From Faecalicoccus acidiformans (GTDB lineage Bacteria > Bacillota_I > Bacilli_A > Erysipelotrichales > Erysipelotrichaceae): a stretch of DNA of 64,000 nt. Shown here piece by piece: positions 23,960 through 33,115 of the stretch. Numbering within the stretch: the stretch's first letter is position 1; each line of letters opens with the position of its first letter. The notes below the pieces were generated by a model. That model was not told where the DNA came from, searched no databases, and was given only the letters and a program-made list of their open reading frames with translations. The stretch lies in the NCBI RefSeq assembly GCF_014202635.1, contig NZ_JACHHD010000011.1, positions 1 through 64,000 of the forward strand, written 5' to 3'. Position numbers and translations under genes: made by a program.

Positions 23960-24970
23960 ATGCAATATGGACTGATTGGCGAACATTTGGGTCATTCTTA
24001 TTCAAAATTGATTCAAGAAAAATTAATAGACAACTATACTTATGAGATTCATCCTGTTAAAAAAACGGATCTGGATGCGTTTATGAAAAAGCATTCTTTC
24101 CAAGCAATCAACGTTACGATCCCATATAAAAAAGACGTGATTCCTTACCTTTATCAATTAGATGATGCTTCCAAGAAAATAGGAGCAGTCAATACTATCG
24201 TAAACCGTGAAGGAAAACTTTTCGGGTATAATACGGATTATTATGGCTTTGATTATATGGTCAAAAAACACGGAATATCGTTTGCGAACAAAAAAGTTCT
24301 CGTTTTAGGAAATGGAGGAGCCAGCCAGGCGATACAAGCCGTCATTAAAGACAATGAAGCAAAAGAACTCTTAGTAACAGATATCATCCTCAGTGGTGAT
24401 GTACTCTCTATCGATTCCGTCTACCAAAATCATAAAGATATCGATATTGTTGTGAATACGACGCCTTGCGGTATGTATCCCCATGTTGATTCCGCAGCGG
24501 TGGATCTATCGAAGTTTATTCACATTGAAGCAGTATTTGATTGTATTTATAATCCAATGGATACAAAGTTTACGCTACAAGCTAAAAGCTTAGGAATTCC
24601 AGTAGCTGTCACTGGATTAGAAATGTTGGTCGGACAAGCAAAGAGGGCCTTGGAGCACTTTAAAGACATTCAAATCGATGATCGGGAAATTGACAGAATC
24701 TATCGTGAGATTTTATTCGAAACATCTAATTTGATCACCGACTGCACAAACTCAGATATACTCAACGATCTAAGCAATCGTCTTCATAAAGAAATACGAT
24801 TTTCTAAGCAAATTGAAAAAGATGCAATTGAAAACAGCCTGATTCTTGTCGTTTCACAAGAGGAAATCTCGGCGCATCAGGAAAAGCTGATTTCGAATGG
24901 CTTTATCGTAAATGGAGATTCAGCCGATACAATCATAGCTAGATTTAAATCTGCCATTCAAAAATTCTAA
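23960..24970 (+). CDS. aroE: Shikimate dehydrogenase with vestigial shikimate-kinase tail
   Basis: Reduces 3-dehydroshikimate to shikimate with NADPH. Residues 1-250 form a normal AroE: shikimate-binding 'GHSYSK' (11-16), catalytic Lys in 'NVTIPYKK', 'GYNTDYYGF' with the catalytic Asp, Rossmann 'LGNGGASQAI' and C-terminal 'VTGLEMLVGQAKRAL'. The remaining ~85 residues align by eye with the front of the AroK part of the neighbouring fusion (for example 'LSNRLHKEI' against 'LSKRLNKPF', and 'LISNGFIVNGDS' against 'LRLNGIVFFIDR'). They have lost the P-loop, the GGG motif and the rest of the kinase. It thus descends from an aroE-aroK fusion. AGAGGTGAAAAT precedes the ATG. Confidence 0.92.
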   Translation: MQYGLIGEHLGHSYSKLIQEKLIDNYTYEIHPVKKTDLDAFMKKHSFQAINVTIPYKKDVIPYLYQLDDASKKIGAVNTIVNREGKLFGYNTDYYGFDYMVKKHGISFANKKVLVLGNGGASQAIQAVIKDNEAKELLVTDIILSGDVLSIDSVYQNHKDIDIVVNTTPCGMYPHVDSAAVDLSKFIHIEAVFDCIYNPMDTKFTLQAKSLGIPVAVTGLEMLVGQAKRALEHFKDIQIDDREIDRIYREILFETSNLITDCTNSDILNDLSNRLHKEIRFSKQIEKDAIENSLILVVSQEEISAHQEKLISNGFIVNGDSADTIIARFKSAIQKF

Positions 24971-25856: not shown

Positions 25857-26877
25857 TTATTTATCGTGTCTTTTTGATAAAGCATCTCGATATTTCACTC
25901 TTTTTGGTGACATTATCGCCATTTTGATGAACTTTAGAACTTTATCATATCGGTCTTTAGGCTCATTCATAATGAACCAAAATAAATTCATCCAGTCTTG
26001 CAGATTTTCTCTGTCGTAACCTCCATGTGCTCTCATAAATTTTTAAAGTAACATATGGAGATGATTGACTGGATATAATGGATTCTCTTTATCGTTCAGC
26101 TGTTTTATTTTATTAGATAAATATACTTCATTTTTTAATCCCAGTTCTTCAACAAGTATGTTATGAGATTTTTCTTCATCATGAACGATTGTCGAACCTT
26201 CGGCTATATGTTTTCCATAGGTTCTGATTGTCGAGGTCCTGGATGGTTTTGATGTTCCTGTCACTATGTAGATGGATGCCTTATCATTGCAGGCAACCCC
26301 TACTCCTATTTTGTTCCTGGATATTCCTCGCAGTTCTTTTCCGTCTTTTTTGATCTTGTTCTGTTTGGCTTTTGAAAAATACGTTTCGTCTAAATATACA
26401 GTACCATCCAACACTATATCATCTTGGATCCCTTTTAATACTTCAAATACTTTAATAAGCCAGTATTTAGCGGTTGTTTCTGAATTCCTGTTGTCATAAG
26501 CTGTGGAATGGAGTGAATGAAATTCAAACAAATGCAGAAGATATTCGATCCATTCCGAAATAGGTATTTTCTTTGAATCAAAGATTGTATTTGTTAATGG
26601 ATTAAATTGATGATGACATGTCTTACAAAAAATAAATCTGAATTCCATCTTTTCTATGCCCATTTTTAGTGAATTCTGAAGAATCGCATAGCCTACAATT
26701 TTCTATAGGTAAAGAGTTTATAAATATTATTTCTTCCTTTGACATCGTACGATGTTTGGCATCATACCATTCAGAAACTGTAGATTCGACTAAAAGTTGA
26801 TCCGTTGTTTTGGCTTCGGATTTAGACCACGAAAAAGAACGTAAAGGTGTGTATTTTTTACGTTTCTTAGATTTCAT
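25857..26877 (-). pseudogene. IS1595-family transposase, frameshifted and with in-frame stop
   Basis: The reading starts at 26877 with a front segment containing 'CRLCDSSEFTKNG'. At the T6 run 26632-26627 it leaves frame; removing one T restores 'GIQIYFCKTCHHQF', completing the C-x2-C...C-x2-C zinc ribbon. The middle part (26663-26043) has the DDE landmarks 'YLDETYFSKAK' and 'IVHDEEKSHN'. A TAA at 26045-26043 interrupts 'NHLHMLL|KFMRAHGGYDRENLQDWMNLFWF', the C-terminal catalytic region; the frame then continues to TAA at 25857. At least two lesions, so inactive unless slippage and readthrough both occur. Confidence 0.88.
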
Positions 26878-26881
26878 TGTT

Positions 26882-26925
26882 TTGGCGGTTCAGAGTTTCA
26901 CGAGATGAACAACCAGAACCGCCAA
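26882..26925 (-). repeat. Hairpin just before the transposase start
   Basis: TTGGCGGTTC (26882-26891) and GAACCGCCAA (26916-26925) can form a 10-bp stem in the transposase mRNA, ending 4 bases before its ATG. Similar structures shield transposase starts from outside transcripts in several IS families. A TATAAT on the minus strand lies further upstream, near 26996. Confidence 0.6.
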
Positions 26926-27027
26926 GTTCTCTTGATGGTTATTCACCTCATGAAGCTCCTCAAGAGCTTGCCTTTCTGTAAGCGTCTAAATTATACCACC
27001 AAGATTTCATTTTTAATATTTATTCAT

Positions 27028-27051
27028 CCTTTATGTGCAAAGGACGAGCCT
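27028..27051 (-). repeat. Right terminal inverted repeat of the IS
   Basis: Exact reverse complement of the left repeat at 25822-25845. The LysR fragment begins immediately after it. Confidence 0.93.
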
Positions 27052-27053
27052 AA

Positions 27054-27404
27054 AAAATTAAACCCTCAGAAAAATGGATCATGTATTCGAAAAGATCGGG
27101 TCTTCGTCCGTATCTTGACGAAGTGTTTAAATCTGTAAAAATCACACCCAATATTCAATGTGAAATTGTTGAAGATACCGCAGCTTTAGGTTTGGTCGCC
27201 ATCAATTATGGCATTGCATTAGTCCCAAATATCAATATCATTAAGCTTTATGATTTAAAAGTCATTAACATCGAAAACAAATTAGAAGATCGAAAGATCT
27301 ATATGGCCACTTTAAAAAATCGTTATTTGACGCCGTCTGTCAATAAGTTTATTAACTTTATGATCCATAACACTTTTAACAATCAAGAGTTTGAAAATAA
27401 ATAA
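27054..27404 (+). pseudogene. LysR-family regulator, C-terminal fragment
   Basis: An open frame of about 116 codons from the IS edge to TAA. It matches the end of a LysR effector-binding domain: 'YSKRSGLRPYLDEVF', 'IVEDTAALGLVAINYGIALVPNI', and a C-terminal 'KNRYLTPSVNKFINFM'. The helix-turn-helix and first effector subdomain are absent, and the sequence left of the IS is aroD, so the 5' half has been deleted and not merely displaced. An ATG at 27081 could start a 107-residue remnant, but it has no ribosome site. By position it probably regulated the aromatic genes. Confidence 0.85.
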
Positions 27405-27412
27405 GAAAATGT

Positions 27413-27441
27413 TTGATTTTATATGTAAGAGTTGGTATTAT
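27413..27441 (+). promoter_or_regulatory. Promoter of the aroEK-aroF operon
   Basis: TTGATT (27413-27418), exactly 17 bases, then TATTAT (27436-27441). The leader-peptide ATG follows six bases later, so transcription is predicted to begin at or next to that ATG. Confidence 0.7.
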
Positions 27442-27447
27442 TTTTAC

Positions 27448-27492
27448 ATGAAAGTATTTTCTTCTAATTACTTTTACTTTTTTAACTCATAG
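27448..27492 (+). CDS. Phe/Tyr-rich attenuation leader peptide
   Basis: A 14-codon ORF, MKVFSSNYFYFFNS, ending in TAG. Four Phe and two Tyr codons, with YFYFF consecutive at positions 8-12, are far more aromatic than chance. It lies directly behind the promoter and ahead of two hairpins, the second an intrinsic terminator, upstream of genes for aromatic amino acid synthesis. This is the classic design of ribosome-mediated attenuation (pheL/trpL type). There is no Shine-Dalgarno sequence; the ATG should be at the very 5' end of the RNA. Confidence 0.72.
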   Translation: MKVFSSNYFYFFNS

Positions 27493-27566
27493 CCCTGCAG
27501 ACATTTTAGAATTGATTCAGGGCTTTTCAAAGTGTTAACTCCTTTATAGTTAACACTTTTTATTTT
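27491..27566 (+). promoter_or_regulatory. Attenuator: pause hairpin and intrinsic terminator before aroEK
   Basis: Hairpin 1 pairs AGCCCTG (27491-27497, overlapping the leader stop) with CAGGGCT (27518-27524). Hairpin 2 pairs AAAGTGTTAACT (27529-27540) with AGTTAACACTTT (27548-27559) and runs into TTTTTATTTT: an intrinsic terminator 20 bases before the aroEK ATG. Candidate competing pairings are the leader TTAACT (27482-27487) with AGTTAA of the 3' arm, and the two TACTTT copies (27469-27474, 27475-27480) with AAAGTG of the 5' arm. The exact antiterminator is not resolved by eye. Confidence 0.7.
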
Positions 27567-27581
27567 ATCAAGGAGAAGGAT

Positions 27582-28889
27582 ATGAAAAGAGGATTAATCG
27601 GAAAAGACTTACGAGGAAACTTTACACAAAGGGTTTCTAATGCATTTGGTTTATCGAATTATGAAATGGTGGAAATGAATGAAGAACAAGTTATTGATTT
27701 TGTAAAAGAAAAAAATTTCGAGGGAATCAATATCACGTTCCCTTATAAAAAATTGATTTATGACTATGTTGATGTTCCCAGTAAAAACGCACAAAAAATT
27801 AAGGCAGTCGATACGATCATTGTTAAAGATGGAAAAACTTATGGTTATAACACAGACTACGATTCATTTTACTATTTGATCAAACGACACAATATCAATT
27901 TTAAAAATAAAAAAGTTCTGATATTAGGAAATGGCGGATCTAGTTCTGCCGTACAAGTGATTGCGAAAGAAATGCAAGCATCAGAAATTAACGTAGTCGA
28001 TATTGTTGAGAGCGAAGGCAGTATCTCATACATTGAATGCTTTGCCAAACATTTAAATTCAGATATCGTGATCAACACTTCCCCCGTTGGTATGTCACCA
28101 GATATTTTAAATGCTCCAATCGCAATGTCATTATTCTCAAACTGCGAAGCCGTAATCGACCTAGTCTATAATCCTATTCTAACCACATTGGGTTTCAATG
28201 CTCAGGAATTAGGAATCACTCGCGTGATCGGAATTGAAATGGAAGTAGCGCAAACCAAATATGCAGTTGAACTGATCACGGGTCAAAAGATATCCGATGA
28301 TAGAATCGATGAGGTGATCCATGAAATCTTAATAGAAAAATGTAATATTGTATTGATTGGTATGCCAAGTGCCGGGAAAACATCTATCGGACAACTTCTC
28401 TCAAAACGTCTTAATAAGCCTTTTATTGATTTAGATGATGTTGTCGTAGAGAAAGCCAAGATGCCAATTCCTGAAATCTTTGATCAAAGCGGTGAAGCCG
28501 GTTTTAGAAAACTAGAATCTCTGGTGGCTGTGGAACTTTCTACCTTAAACAACGTAATCATTGCGACTGGCGGAGGAACCGTCAAAAATAAAGCCAATAT
28601 GGATAGTCTGCGTTTAAATGGAATCGTATTCTTTATTGACCGTGATCTGGACAAGCTGATTTCTAGCGATCCTAATCGCCCGTTGTCTTCAAGCAAAGAA
28701 GCTTTGCGAACTATGCATAAAGAGAGATATCCACTGTATCAGAAATATTCAAATGTAGTTGTCTTTAATAACGAAGAAATGGATAAAACCGTAGAAGATA
28801 TTGTAAAAGGATTCCATGAGACTGCCAAGCAAGCTGTAAAAAAAGATTGGAGGAAATATTGTGATCATCACTCTGAAAAAAGAAGCTAA
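27582..28889 (+). CDS. aroE-aroK: AroE-AroK fusion: shikimate dehydrogenase-like + shikimate kinase
   Basis: 435 residues. Residues 1-250 have the AroE fold with catalytic Lys in 'NITFPYKK', 'GYNTDYDSF' and Rossmann 'LGNGGSSSAV'. The shikimate-binding G-H-S-x-S motif reads 'RGNFTQ' (12-16), losing both serines, so this domain's activity or substrate is in doubt. Residues 254-420 are a complete shikimate kinase: P-loop 'GMPSAGKTSIG' (260-270), 'DLDD', 'GEAGFRKLE' and 'ATGGGTV'. Kinase phosphorylates shikimate at O3. Preceded by AAGGAGAAGG and the attenuator; overlaps aroF by 29 bases. Confidence 0.93.
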   Translation: MKRGLIGKDLRGNFTQRVSNAFGLSNYEMVEMNEEQVIDFVKEKNFEGINITFPYKKLIYDYVDVPSKNAQKIKAVDTIIVKDGKTYGYNTDYDSFYYLIKRHNINFKNKKVLILGNGGSSSAVQVIAKEMQASEINVVDIVESEGSISYIECFAKHLNSDIVINTSPVGMSPDILNAPIAMSLFSNCEAVIDLVYNPILTTLGFNAQELGITRVIGIEMEVAQTKYAVELITGQKISDDRIDEVIHEILIEKCNIVLIGMPSAGKTSIGQLLSKRLNKPFIDLDDVVVEKAKMPIPEIFDQSGEAGFRKLESLVAVELSTLNNVIIATGGGTVKNKANMDSLRLNGIVFFIDRDLDKLISSDPNRPLSSSKEALRTMHKERYPLYQKYSNVVVFNNEEMDKTVEDIVKGFHETAKQAVKKDWRKYCDHHSEKRS

Positions 28890-29874
28890 ACCCGAACAAA
28901 TAAAGAAATTAGTTCATCGTTTTGAAAACATGAATTTAAAGGTTACCGTCATTTATGGAGAAAACTATAATGTATTTGGTTTAGTTGGCGATACATCGAA
29001 AGTAGATGAAAAAAACATCATGGCCAACCCTATCGTCGCCAATGTGCAACGTGTAGATGAGCCCTATAAACTGGTTAATCGAAAATTTCATCCCGAAGAT
29101 ACTATCGTCGATGTAAATGGAATCAAGATTGGCGGAAAGAAGCTGACAATGATTGCCGGCCCATGCAGTGTCGAGGGTAAAGATCAAATTCTGAGAATAG
29201 CAAAAGAAGTCAAAAAATGTGGAGCAGATATGTTGCGAGGCGGTGCCTATAAACCGAGAACAAGTCCTTACGCTTTTCAGGGGTTAGGAACTCAGGGGAT
29301 TCTGGATCTTTGTCAGGCACGAAAAGAAACAGGTTTACCCATCGTCAGCGAATTAATGGCAACCGAACACTTGCAAGAGTTCGTTGAAAATGTAGACATT
29401 ATTCAGATCGGGGCTCGTAACATGCAAAACTTCGACCTTCTCAAAGCTGTCGGAAAAACAAAAAAACCAATTCTGTTAAAGCGCGGTTTAGCAAATACAA
29501 TTAATGAATGGATCATGGCAGCTGAGTATATTATGTCAGAAGGAAATCCGAATGTAATTTTCTGCGAAAGAGGTATCCGAACTTTTGAAACAATGACACG
29601 AAACACCCTGGATCTGGCAGTCATTCCCATCATAAAATCAAAAACGCATTTACCGATCATTATCGATCCAAGCCATGCCGCAGGAAACTGGAAACTTATC
29701 GAATCCTTATCATTAGCATCCATAGCAGCCGGAGCTGATGGATTGATCATCGAAGTACATGATAATCCGGAATGCGCTTGGAGCGATGGGGATCAAAGTC
29801 TGAAACCAGAAAAGTATGCAAGTTTGATTCAAAAGGGAAAAAAGATTGCTCAAGTTATTGGAAGAGAATTATAG
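28861..29874 (+). CDS. aroF: 3-Deoxy-7-phosphoheptulonate synthase (DAHP synthase)
   Basis: First step of the shikimate pathway: phosphoenolpyruvate + erythrose-4-phosphate to DAHP. It is the KDO8PS-like (type I-beta) class with an N-terminal ferredoxin-like regulatory domain (about 1-70) that in this class binds Phe/Tyr or is fused to chorismate mutase. Core motifs: 'IAGPCSVEG', 'GGAYKPRTSPYAFQG', 'IGARNMQNF', 'LLKRGL', 'CERGIRTFE', 'IDPSHAAG'. The start is a GTG seven bases after GGAGG inside the aroK end. Co-transcribed with aroEK under the aromatic attenuator. Confidence 0.95.
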   Translation: MIITLKKEAKPEQIKKLVHRFENMNLKVTVIYGENYNVFGLVGDTSKVDEKNIMANPIVANVQRVDEPYKLVNRKFHPEDTIVDVNGIKIGGKKLTMIAGPCSVEGKDQILRIAKEVKKCGADMLRGGAYKPRTSPYAFQGLGTQGILDLCQARKETGLPIVSELMATEHLQEFVENVDIIQIGARNMQNFDLLKAVGKTKKPILLKRGLANTINEWIMAAEYIMSEGNPNVIFCERGIRTFETMTRNTLDLAVIPIIKSKTHLPIIIDPSHAAGNWKLIESLSLASIAAGADGLIIEVHDNPECAWSDGDQSLKPEKYASLIQKGKKIAQVIGREL

Positions 29875-29907
29875 AAAAAAACAGTATCACATCAGATACT
29901 GTTTTTC
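29875..29907. terminator. Bidirectional terminator, aroF / YgjP-like gene
   Basis: ACAGTATC (29881-29888) pairs with GATACTGT (29895-29902), flanked by A7 and T5. The stop codon of the minus-strand gene lies inside the left arm. Confidence 0.82.
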
Positions 29908-32914: not shown

Positions 32915-33115
32915 TAAAAAAAACGTCCTGAATAAGGACGTTTGCACGCGGTACCACCTTACTTCATACAATAAGTATGCACTCTAGTCTTTAACGCAGA
33001 CCTACGTCAAATGAAGCTCCAAGGTGTATTCCACAGATTTTCCTACAGCTTTGCACCAGCCAGCTGCTCTCTGACAAGAAAGATTCTGTGTACTCTTTCT
33101 CTTCATCGCTGTAAC
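32915..33115 (-). promoter_or_regulatory. T-box leader of tyrS (Tyr specifier)
   Basis: Minus strand: specifier TAC (33028-33026) in GTGGAATACACC, T-box core AAGGTGGTACCGCG (about 32946-32961), and terminator ACGTCC...GGACGT followed by TTTTTTT (32915-32941). Stem I and the AGAGA region lie upstream to about 33115. Confidence 0.94.

Follow-up and report, generated by a model that had tools for sequence, protein, structure and literature searches.

What controls the two-gene operon aroEK-aroF of Faecalicoccus acidiformans, and does the very short, Phe- and Tyr-rich reading frame ahead of it serve as the sensor? Combining a close reading of the window (the whole stretch of DNA analysed, 64,000 nucleotides long) with a comparison of leaders across the family Erysipelotrichaceae, we arrive at the view, to which we give a probability of about 0.87, that this region is a ribosome-mediated transcription attenuator that senses the charging of tRNA-Phe and tRNA-Tyr and thereby controls entry into the shikimate pathway.

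Results

A preliminary description of this DNA, made from its letters alone, had named a TTGATT-N17-TATTAT promoter, a 14-codon reading frame rich in Phe and Tyr, a hairpin (H1) at its stop codon, a 12-bp terminator, and a ribosome site between the terminator and aroEK, and every one of these elements is indeed found in the window (Table 1). Six of the 14 leader codons encode Phe or Tyr, and the terminator hairpin ends 22 nt upstream of the aroEK ATG (27582). The RNA from 27448 to 27581 folds more stably than its shuffled counterparts (z -3.4), with 1 of 200 shuffles equally stable. Taken by itself, the promoter-like match does not exceed chance (17 such matches found against 14.8 expected); it is because the elements are conserved in relatives that the set as a whole stands above it.

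Table 1. Features of the leader locus and of the operon downstream (window coordinates).
Feature	Position	Strand	Details
Promoter, TTGATT and TG-extended TATTAT	27413-27441	+	TTGATT 27413-27418, spacer 17 nt, TATTAT 27436-27441; start predicted at 27448
Leader ORF, MKVFSSNYFYFFNS	27448-27492	+	ATG 27448, stop TAG 27490-27492; probably leaderless
Hairpin H1	27491-27524	+	AGCCCTG 27491-27497 / CAGGGCT 27518-27524; first base inside the stop codon
Candidate antiterminator, GACAUUUUaGAA with UUCAAAGUGUU	27500-27536	+	27500-27511 with 27526-27536; -7.2 kcal/mol
Intrinsic terminator, 12 bp	27529-27566	+	arms 27529-27540 / 27548-27559; T-rich tail TTATTTTATC
aroEK ribosome binding site	27570-27579	+	
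aroEK, shikimate dehydrogenase-shikimate kinase fusion	27582-28889	+	
aroF, DAHP synthase	28861-29874	+	start overlaps the end of aroEK
Terminator-like hairpin	29877-29906	+	closes the two-gene operon aroEK-aroF

The genes downstream make the amino acids that the leader would sense, as is expected of an attenuator. The aroEK product (435 aa) joins an N-terminal shikimate dehydrogenase to a shikimate kinase domain, its nearest named relatives belonging to uncultured Faecalicoccus metagenome-assembled genomes (91% and 85% identity), and the aroF product, a DAHP synthase, also has a ferredoxin-like domain. No such leader precedes aroB-aroC or pheA of the same genome, neither of the two covariance models described below found a second copy of the leader there, and a BLAST search of plasmids with the leader gave no match.

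The neighbourhood holds some further features. The region directly upstream (26043-27404) holds the last 107 codons of a LysR-type regulator gene, all that is left of it in the window, and, adjoining this remnant, a transposase-like gene pair on the opposite strand; in L003 and L004, both relatives from Faecalicoccus, the regulator is full length (about 300 aa). A separate second shikimate dehydrogenase-like gene, which is extended at its C-terminal end, lies at 23960-24970, about 2.6 kb upstream of aroEK, and in the relatives G165:C41 and G162:C56 two aroEK-like genes stand side by side.

The start of the leader ORF is unusual in its spacing. In the window, the ATG follows the -10 element by exactly 6 nt, placing the predicted transcription start on the A of the AUG, and no ribosome site is found upstream of the ORF. 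Because of this spacing and the missing ribosome site, the leader mRNA is probably leaderless, and translation of the leader would therefore depend on leaderless reading. The same spacing recurs elsewhere: among the 93 leaders compared, 25 lack a real ribosome site and have exactly 6 nt between the end of the -10 element and the ATG, including six of the seven closest to the window (group W, below), the seventh having 7 nt. L056 and L073, read by eye, show the same arrangement; three leaders have 7 nt, bringing the total to about 30 of the 93. In the remaining leaders the distance is mostly 15-26 nt, and a ribosome site of the GGAG or GAGG type is often present. The background, taken from all 2656 ATGs in the window, is near-flat at about four per spacing, with a small rise to 9 and 8 at spacings of 6 and 7 nt. 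A signal-based survey found few leaderless genes in Firmicutes, concentrated in Lactobacillales and Mycoplasma (PMC3160421). As a separate observation, exactly 6 nt separate TAAAAT from the ATG of pheA in the same genome (L135, G000:C3), where there is no ribosome site either, so that this gene may be leaderless too.

To place the window among its relatives, leaders were gathered from the DNA preceding aroEK homologues throughout the family and by searches with two covariance models, one built from compact leaders (R1) and one from aroB leaders (R2). Counted from the search lists, this gave 94 leaders in 87 genomes of 28 genera of Erysipelotrichaceae. By tblastn, a shikimate gene is the first gene downstream in 93 of the 94 (aroB 63, aroEK 26, aroF 4); the exception is L089, whose contig ends a few tens of bases downstream of the leader. 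We sorted the leaders into group W (7; Faecalicoccus and the nearest genera, with a simple H1), group A (38; compact leaders whose H1 usually contains an inner hairpin as well as a U-rich bulge), and group B (49; extended). Using model R1 on a class-wide sample, we found no convincing match outside the family, and those outside matches that were inspected had neither such a leader ORF nor an aro gene.

Each of the 52 leaders read in detail comprises a short ORF with a Phe/Tyr run at its end, a hairpin, and an intrinsic terminator. Their last eight codons hold 127 Phe and 120 Tyr (together 3 to 7 per leader), and none of the 52 ORFs contains a Trp codon. H1 begins at +0 to +8 after the first base of the stop codon in every one of the 52, each step of its stem carries differing pair types among them, and the mean folding z is -3.8. 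In the compact groups H1 mostly ends 0-9 nt upstream of the terminator. Between the window and its nearest relative, L003, the 45-base ORF differs by a single, synonymous base, and the H1 loop has changed considerably. Conservation of the Phe/Tyr codons in relatives, which the preliminary description had set as a check on its reading, extends across the family, and the helices of group B (below) carry compensatory changes. By such comparison the leader ORF, H1, the terminator, and their link to the shikimate genes are conserved parts of one arrangement.

Three variations are of interest in their own right. In group A (for example L010, L011, L064, and L066), H1 in most cases carries an inner hairpin CCAN..NTGG followed by a T-rich bulge (TTNTTTT), which could be an RNA polymerase pause signal. 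The terminator arms of the same group keep GCATC/GATGC across many genera while H1 varies freely, as if the terminator sequence were under a second constraint. Finally, the leader-like stretch L072 before an aroB gene (G084:C8:45174-45282) has a Tyr run without an in-frame stop at H1 and looks degraded or misread.

The switch is most clearly seen in group B, where the model behind our alignment of all 49 leaders (A4) comprised just two elements, helix 1:2 and the terminator. These two have 96.3% of cells paired and 104 double changes, against 19 in shuffles. Three further helices lying outside the model are also conserved and covary: the antiterminator 3:4 (90.9% paired, 35 double changes against 13 in shuffles), helix 2:3 (92.9%, 24 against 8), and helix 0:3 (96.1%, 10 against 3.6). 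The counts of double changes are inflated by related sequences; controls in which helix 3:4 is slid along the alignment retain that relatedness, yet fall far lower, to 8-57% paired. Column 107 of A4, in segment 3, pairs with columns 22, 48, and 162 in different states, its partners lying in turn in segments 0, 2, and 4, and covaries with each of them. Segment 0 shares bases with the last codon and with the stop, segment 1 comes directly after it, and the position of the ribosome would therefore pick the helices. The front of a ribosome lies 12-13 nt beyond the start of the A-site codon, as known from toeprinting, and we calculated partition functions of leaders truncated at that front. In 5 of 6 group B leaders the terminator probability dips at ribosome edges -6 to +6 and returns from +9; this dip and recovery is strong in some (L076) and slight in two of the five (e.g. 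L079). With all its mutually exclusive helices conserved and covarying, ribosome-mediated attenuation in group B is well supported on comparative grounds.

Among the compact leaders of groups W and A, the window and 44 others, conservation is limited to H1 and the terminator. At equilibrium, the terminator of nearly all compact leaders is computed to form in every ribosome state. Neither terminator arm pairs with the H1 region or the RNA after the stop in compact leaders in excess of shuffles, and no third helix was consistently conserved in the 37 of them that were searched with positions anchored. In the window itself, the segment 27500-27511 can pair with 27526-27536 through 8 + 3 pairs around a bulged A. 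This pairing is predicted to be excluded by H1 with the ribosome edge at 0 or earlier relative to the stop, to form at +3 to +9, which corresponds to Phe12 in the A site, and to weaken from +12 on, that is, with the ribosome at the stop; it thus follows the order of events expected of a trp-like leader. We list it as a candidate only, because stalls on the earlier codons of the YFYFF run leave H1 free, its strength is not beyond chance (z -1.2), and it is weak in L003 and absent in L004. The preliminary description had left the antiterminator pairing unsettled; the alternative helices are now found for group B, and the window has this candidate. A pseudoknot between the H1 loop (27500-27507) and the 5' arm of the terminator (27529-27536) was also considered and set aside: it is possible in the window and, by eye, weakened in L003 and lost in L004.

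Conversely, the compact leaders might hold the same sensor without any antiterminator helix, with the ribosome alone as the switch: H1 itself would hinder completion of the terminator where the RNA leaves the polymerase, at the exit channel, and would be removed by a ribosome at the stop, which would so permit termination. The persistence in groups W and A of H1 at the stop and of a short gap to the terminator, yet of no third helix, would fit such an arrangement, but we consider it improbable. We found no precedent for it, it would predict readthrough without a ribosome, and equilibrium folding places H1 and the terminator side by side.

Less probable still is control driven by translation with the opposite sign, in which free leader RNA pairs with the terminator, so that an untranslated leader gives readthrough and any ribosome gives termination. 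Over 45 leaders the ORF does pair with the 3' arm of the terminator beyond expectation (mean z -0.69, standard error 0.19), with strong cases in L007, L052, L056, L058, and L070, but most leaders lack the pairing, as does the window (z -0.1), control of this sign would be hard to make sense of in a biosynthetic operon, and group B points to the opposite. ORF-terminator pairing was accordingly rejected as the switch: its excess is real in a few lineages, but the window does not share it and its sign is wrong. In those five leaders and in L071, the ORF is complementary to the terminator loop and 3' arm at -11 to -16 kcal/mol, by calculation sufficient, in an untranslated leader, to reduce or eliminate the terminator.

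That the small ORF arose by chance in AT-rich DNA, and that the two hairpins are a riboswitch or an element bound by a protein, is very hard to maintain: no ribosome site precedes the ORF and no covariance model of the Rfam 15 leader families matches the leader region near any gathering score, but a Phe/Tyr-rich ORF ending at H1 recurs at 94 loci, without Trp and with a synonymous change between relatives. An overlooked T-box is refuted, for although the window holds four T-boxes, none is at the leader (the nearest is at 32931) and the T-box model (RF00230) finds no match in 27400-27620 even at E up to 10.

Discussion

Our work supports the original reading of this locus as an aromatic leader-peptide attenuator, given a family-wide use of Phe and Tyr without Trp, the position of 93 of the 94 leaders before shikimate genes, and the helices of group B. 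From the group B alignment we infer the direction of control and the ribosome positions as follows. A ribosome slowed on the last Phe/Tyr codons would cover segment 0 and not segment 1, allowing helix 1:2 to form; segment 3 would then be free to form helix 3:4 by pairing with the terminator's loop and arms, giving readthrough. A ribosome at the stop would cover both segments 0 and 1, leaving helix 2:3 to hold segment 3 so that the terminator forms, and without a ribosome helix 0:3 would hold segment 3 to the same end. The window, we further infer, would work by this logic too, H1 playing the part of 0:3 and 27500-27511:27526-27536 being the candidate antiterminator. With Phe and Tyr plentiful, the ribosome would reach the leader stop and RNA polymerase would stop at about 27560-27566; with either of them short, the ribosome would slow in the YFYFF run.

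If this mechanism is right, the shikimate pathway of a whole gut Bacillota family, the Erysipelotrichaceae, answers to Phe and Tyr via coupled translation and transcription. In Bacillus subtilis, transcription is held to run ahead of translation, and the leaders described here offer ready reporters for asking whether Erysipelotrichaceae couple transcription and translation. The repeated leaderless start of the ORF may likewise serve as a natural experiment on whether initiation at the 5' end helps the ribosome keep pace with RNA polymerase.

In the pheL and trpL leaders of enterobacteria, a stalled ribosome leads to the antiterminator and a ribosome at the stop to the terminator. The aro leaders share this stalled-ribosome logic but differ in that pheL and trpL each sense a single amino acid through an ORF led by a ribosome site, and in that the aro leader has no match among the Rfam leader families. 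The trpL leader of Sinorhizobium meliloti likewise has 14 codons and a leaderless transcript starting at the AUG (PMC7298713), but belongs to the Alphaproteobacteria and senses Trp.

The suggestion that such control would be unusual in Bacillota proves only partly right, since leader-peptide attenuators are documented there for his, hisS/hisZ, and ilv, along with a candidate for aroF. Those of his in Erysipelotrichales and other Firmicutes (PMC9413887) have, in the same bacterial order, a leader peptide with consecutive pathway codons leading straight into the attenuator hairpins, as here, but for histidine and other genes; hisS/hisZ are so controlled in bacilli (PMC2965389). The ilv leader of Staphylococcus aureus, which has genetic support and a proposed antiterminator that takes up the poly-U (PMC5794164), likewise combines an amino-acid-rich leader peptide with a terminator, but senses Leu/Ile. 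Our literature search, with subscription journals mostly outside it, found no description of aromatic leaders in Erysipelotrichaceae. Since attenuators of this type are already documented in Bacillota, what is new is a broad, well-conserved set of aromatic leaders in this family. Closest in content is the uORFC-13-1 motif, known upstream of aroF from 24 representatives in Acholeplasma and environmental DNA only, for which attenuation was proposed and an antiterminator not given (PMC8632094). By description, a DAHP synthase gene is preceded in both by a short ORF containing Phe codons, another helix, and an intrinsic terminator; uORFC-13-1 is tied to aroF only, whereas the Erysipelotrichaceae leaders precede aroB, aroEK, and aroF, use Phe plus Tyr, and in group B have a worked-out switch.
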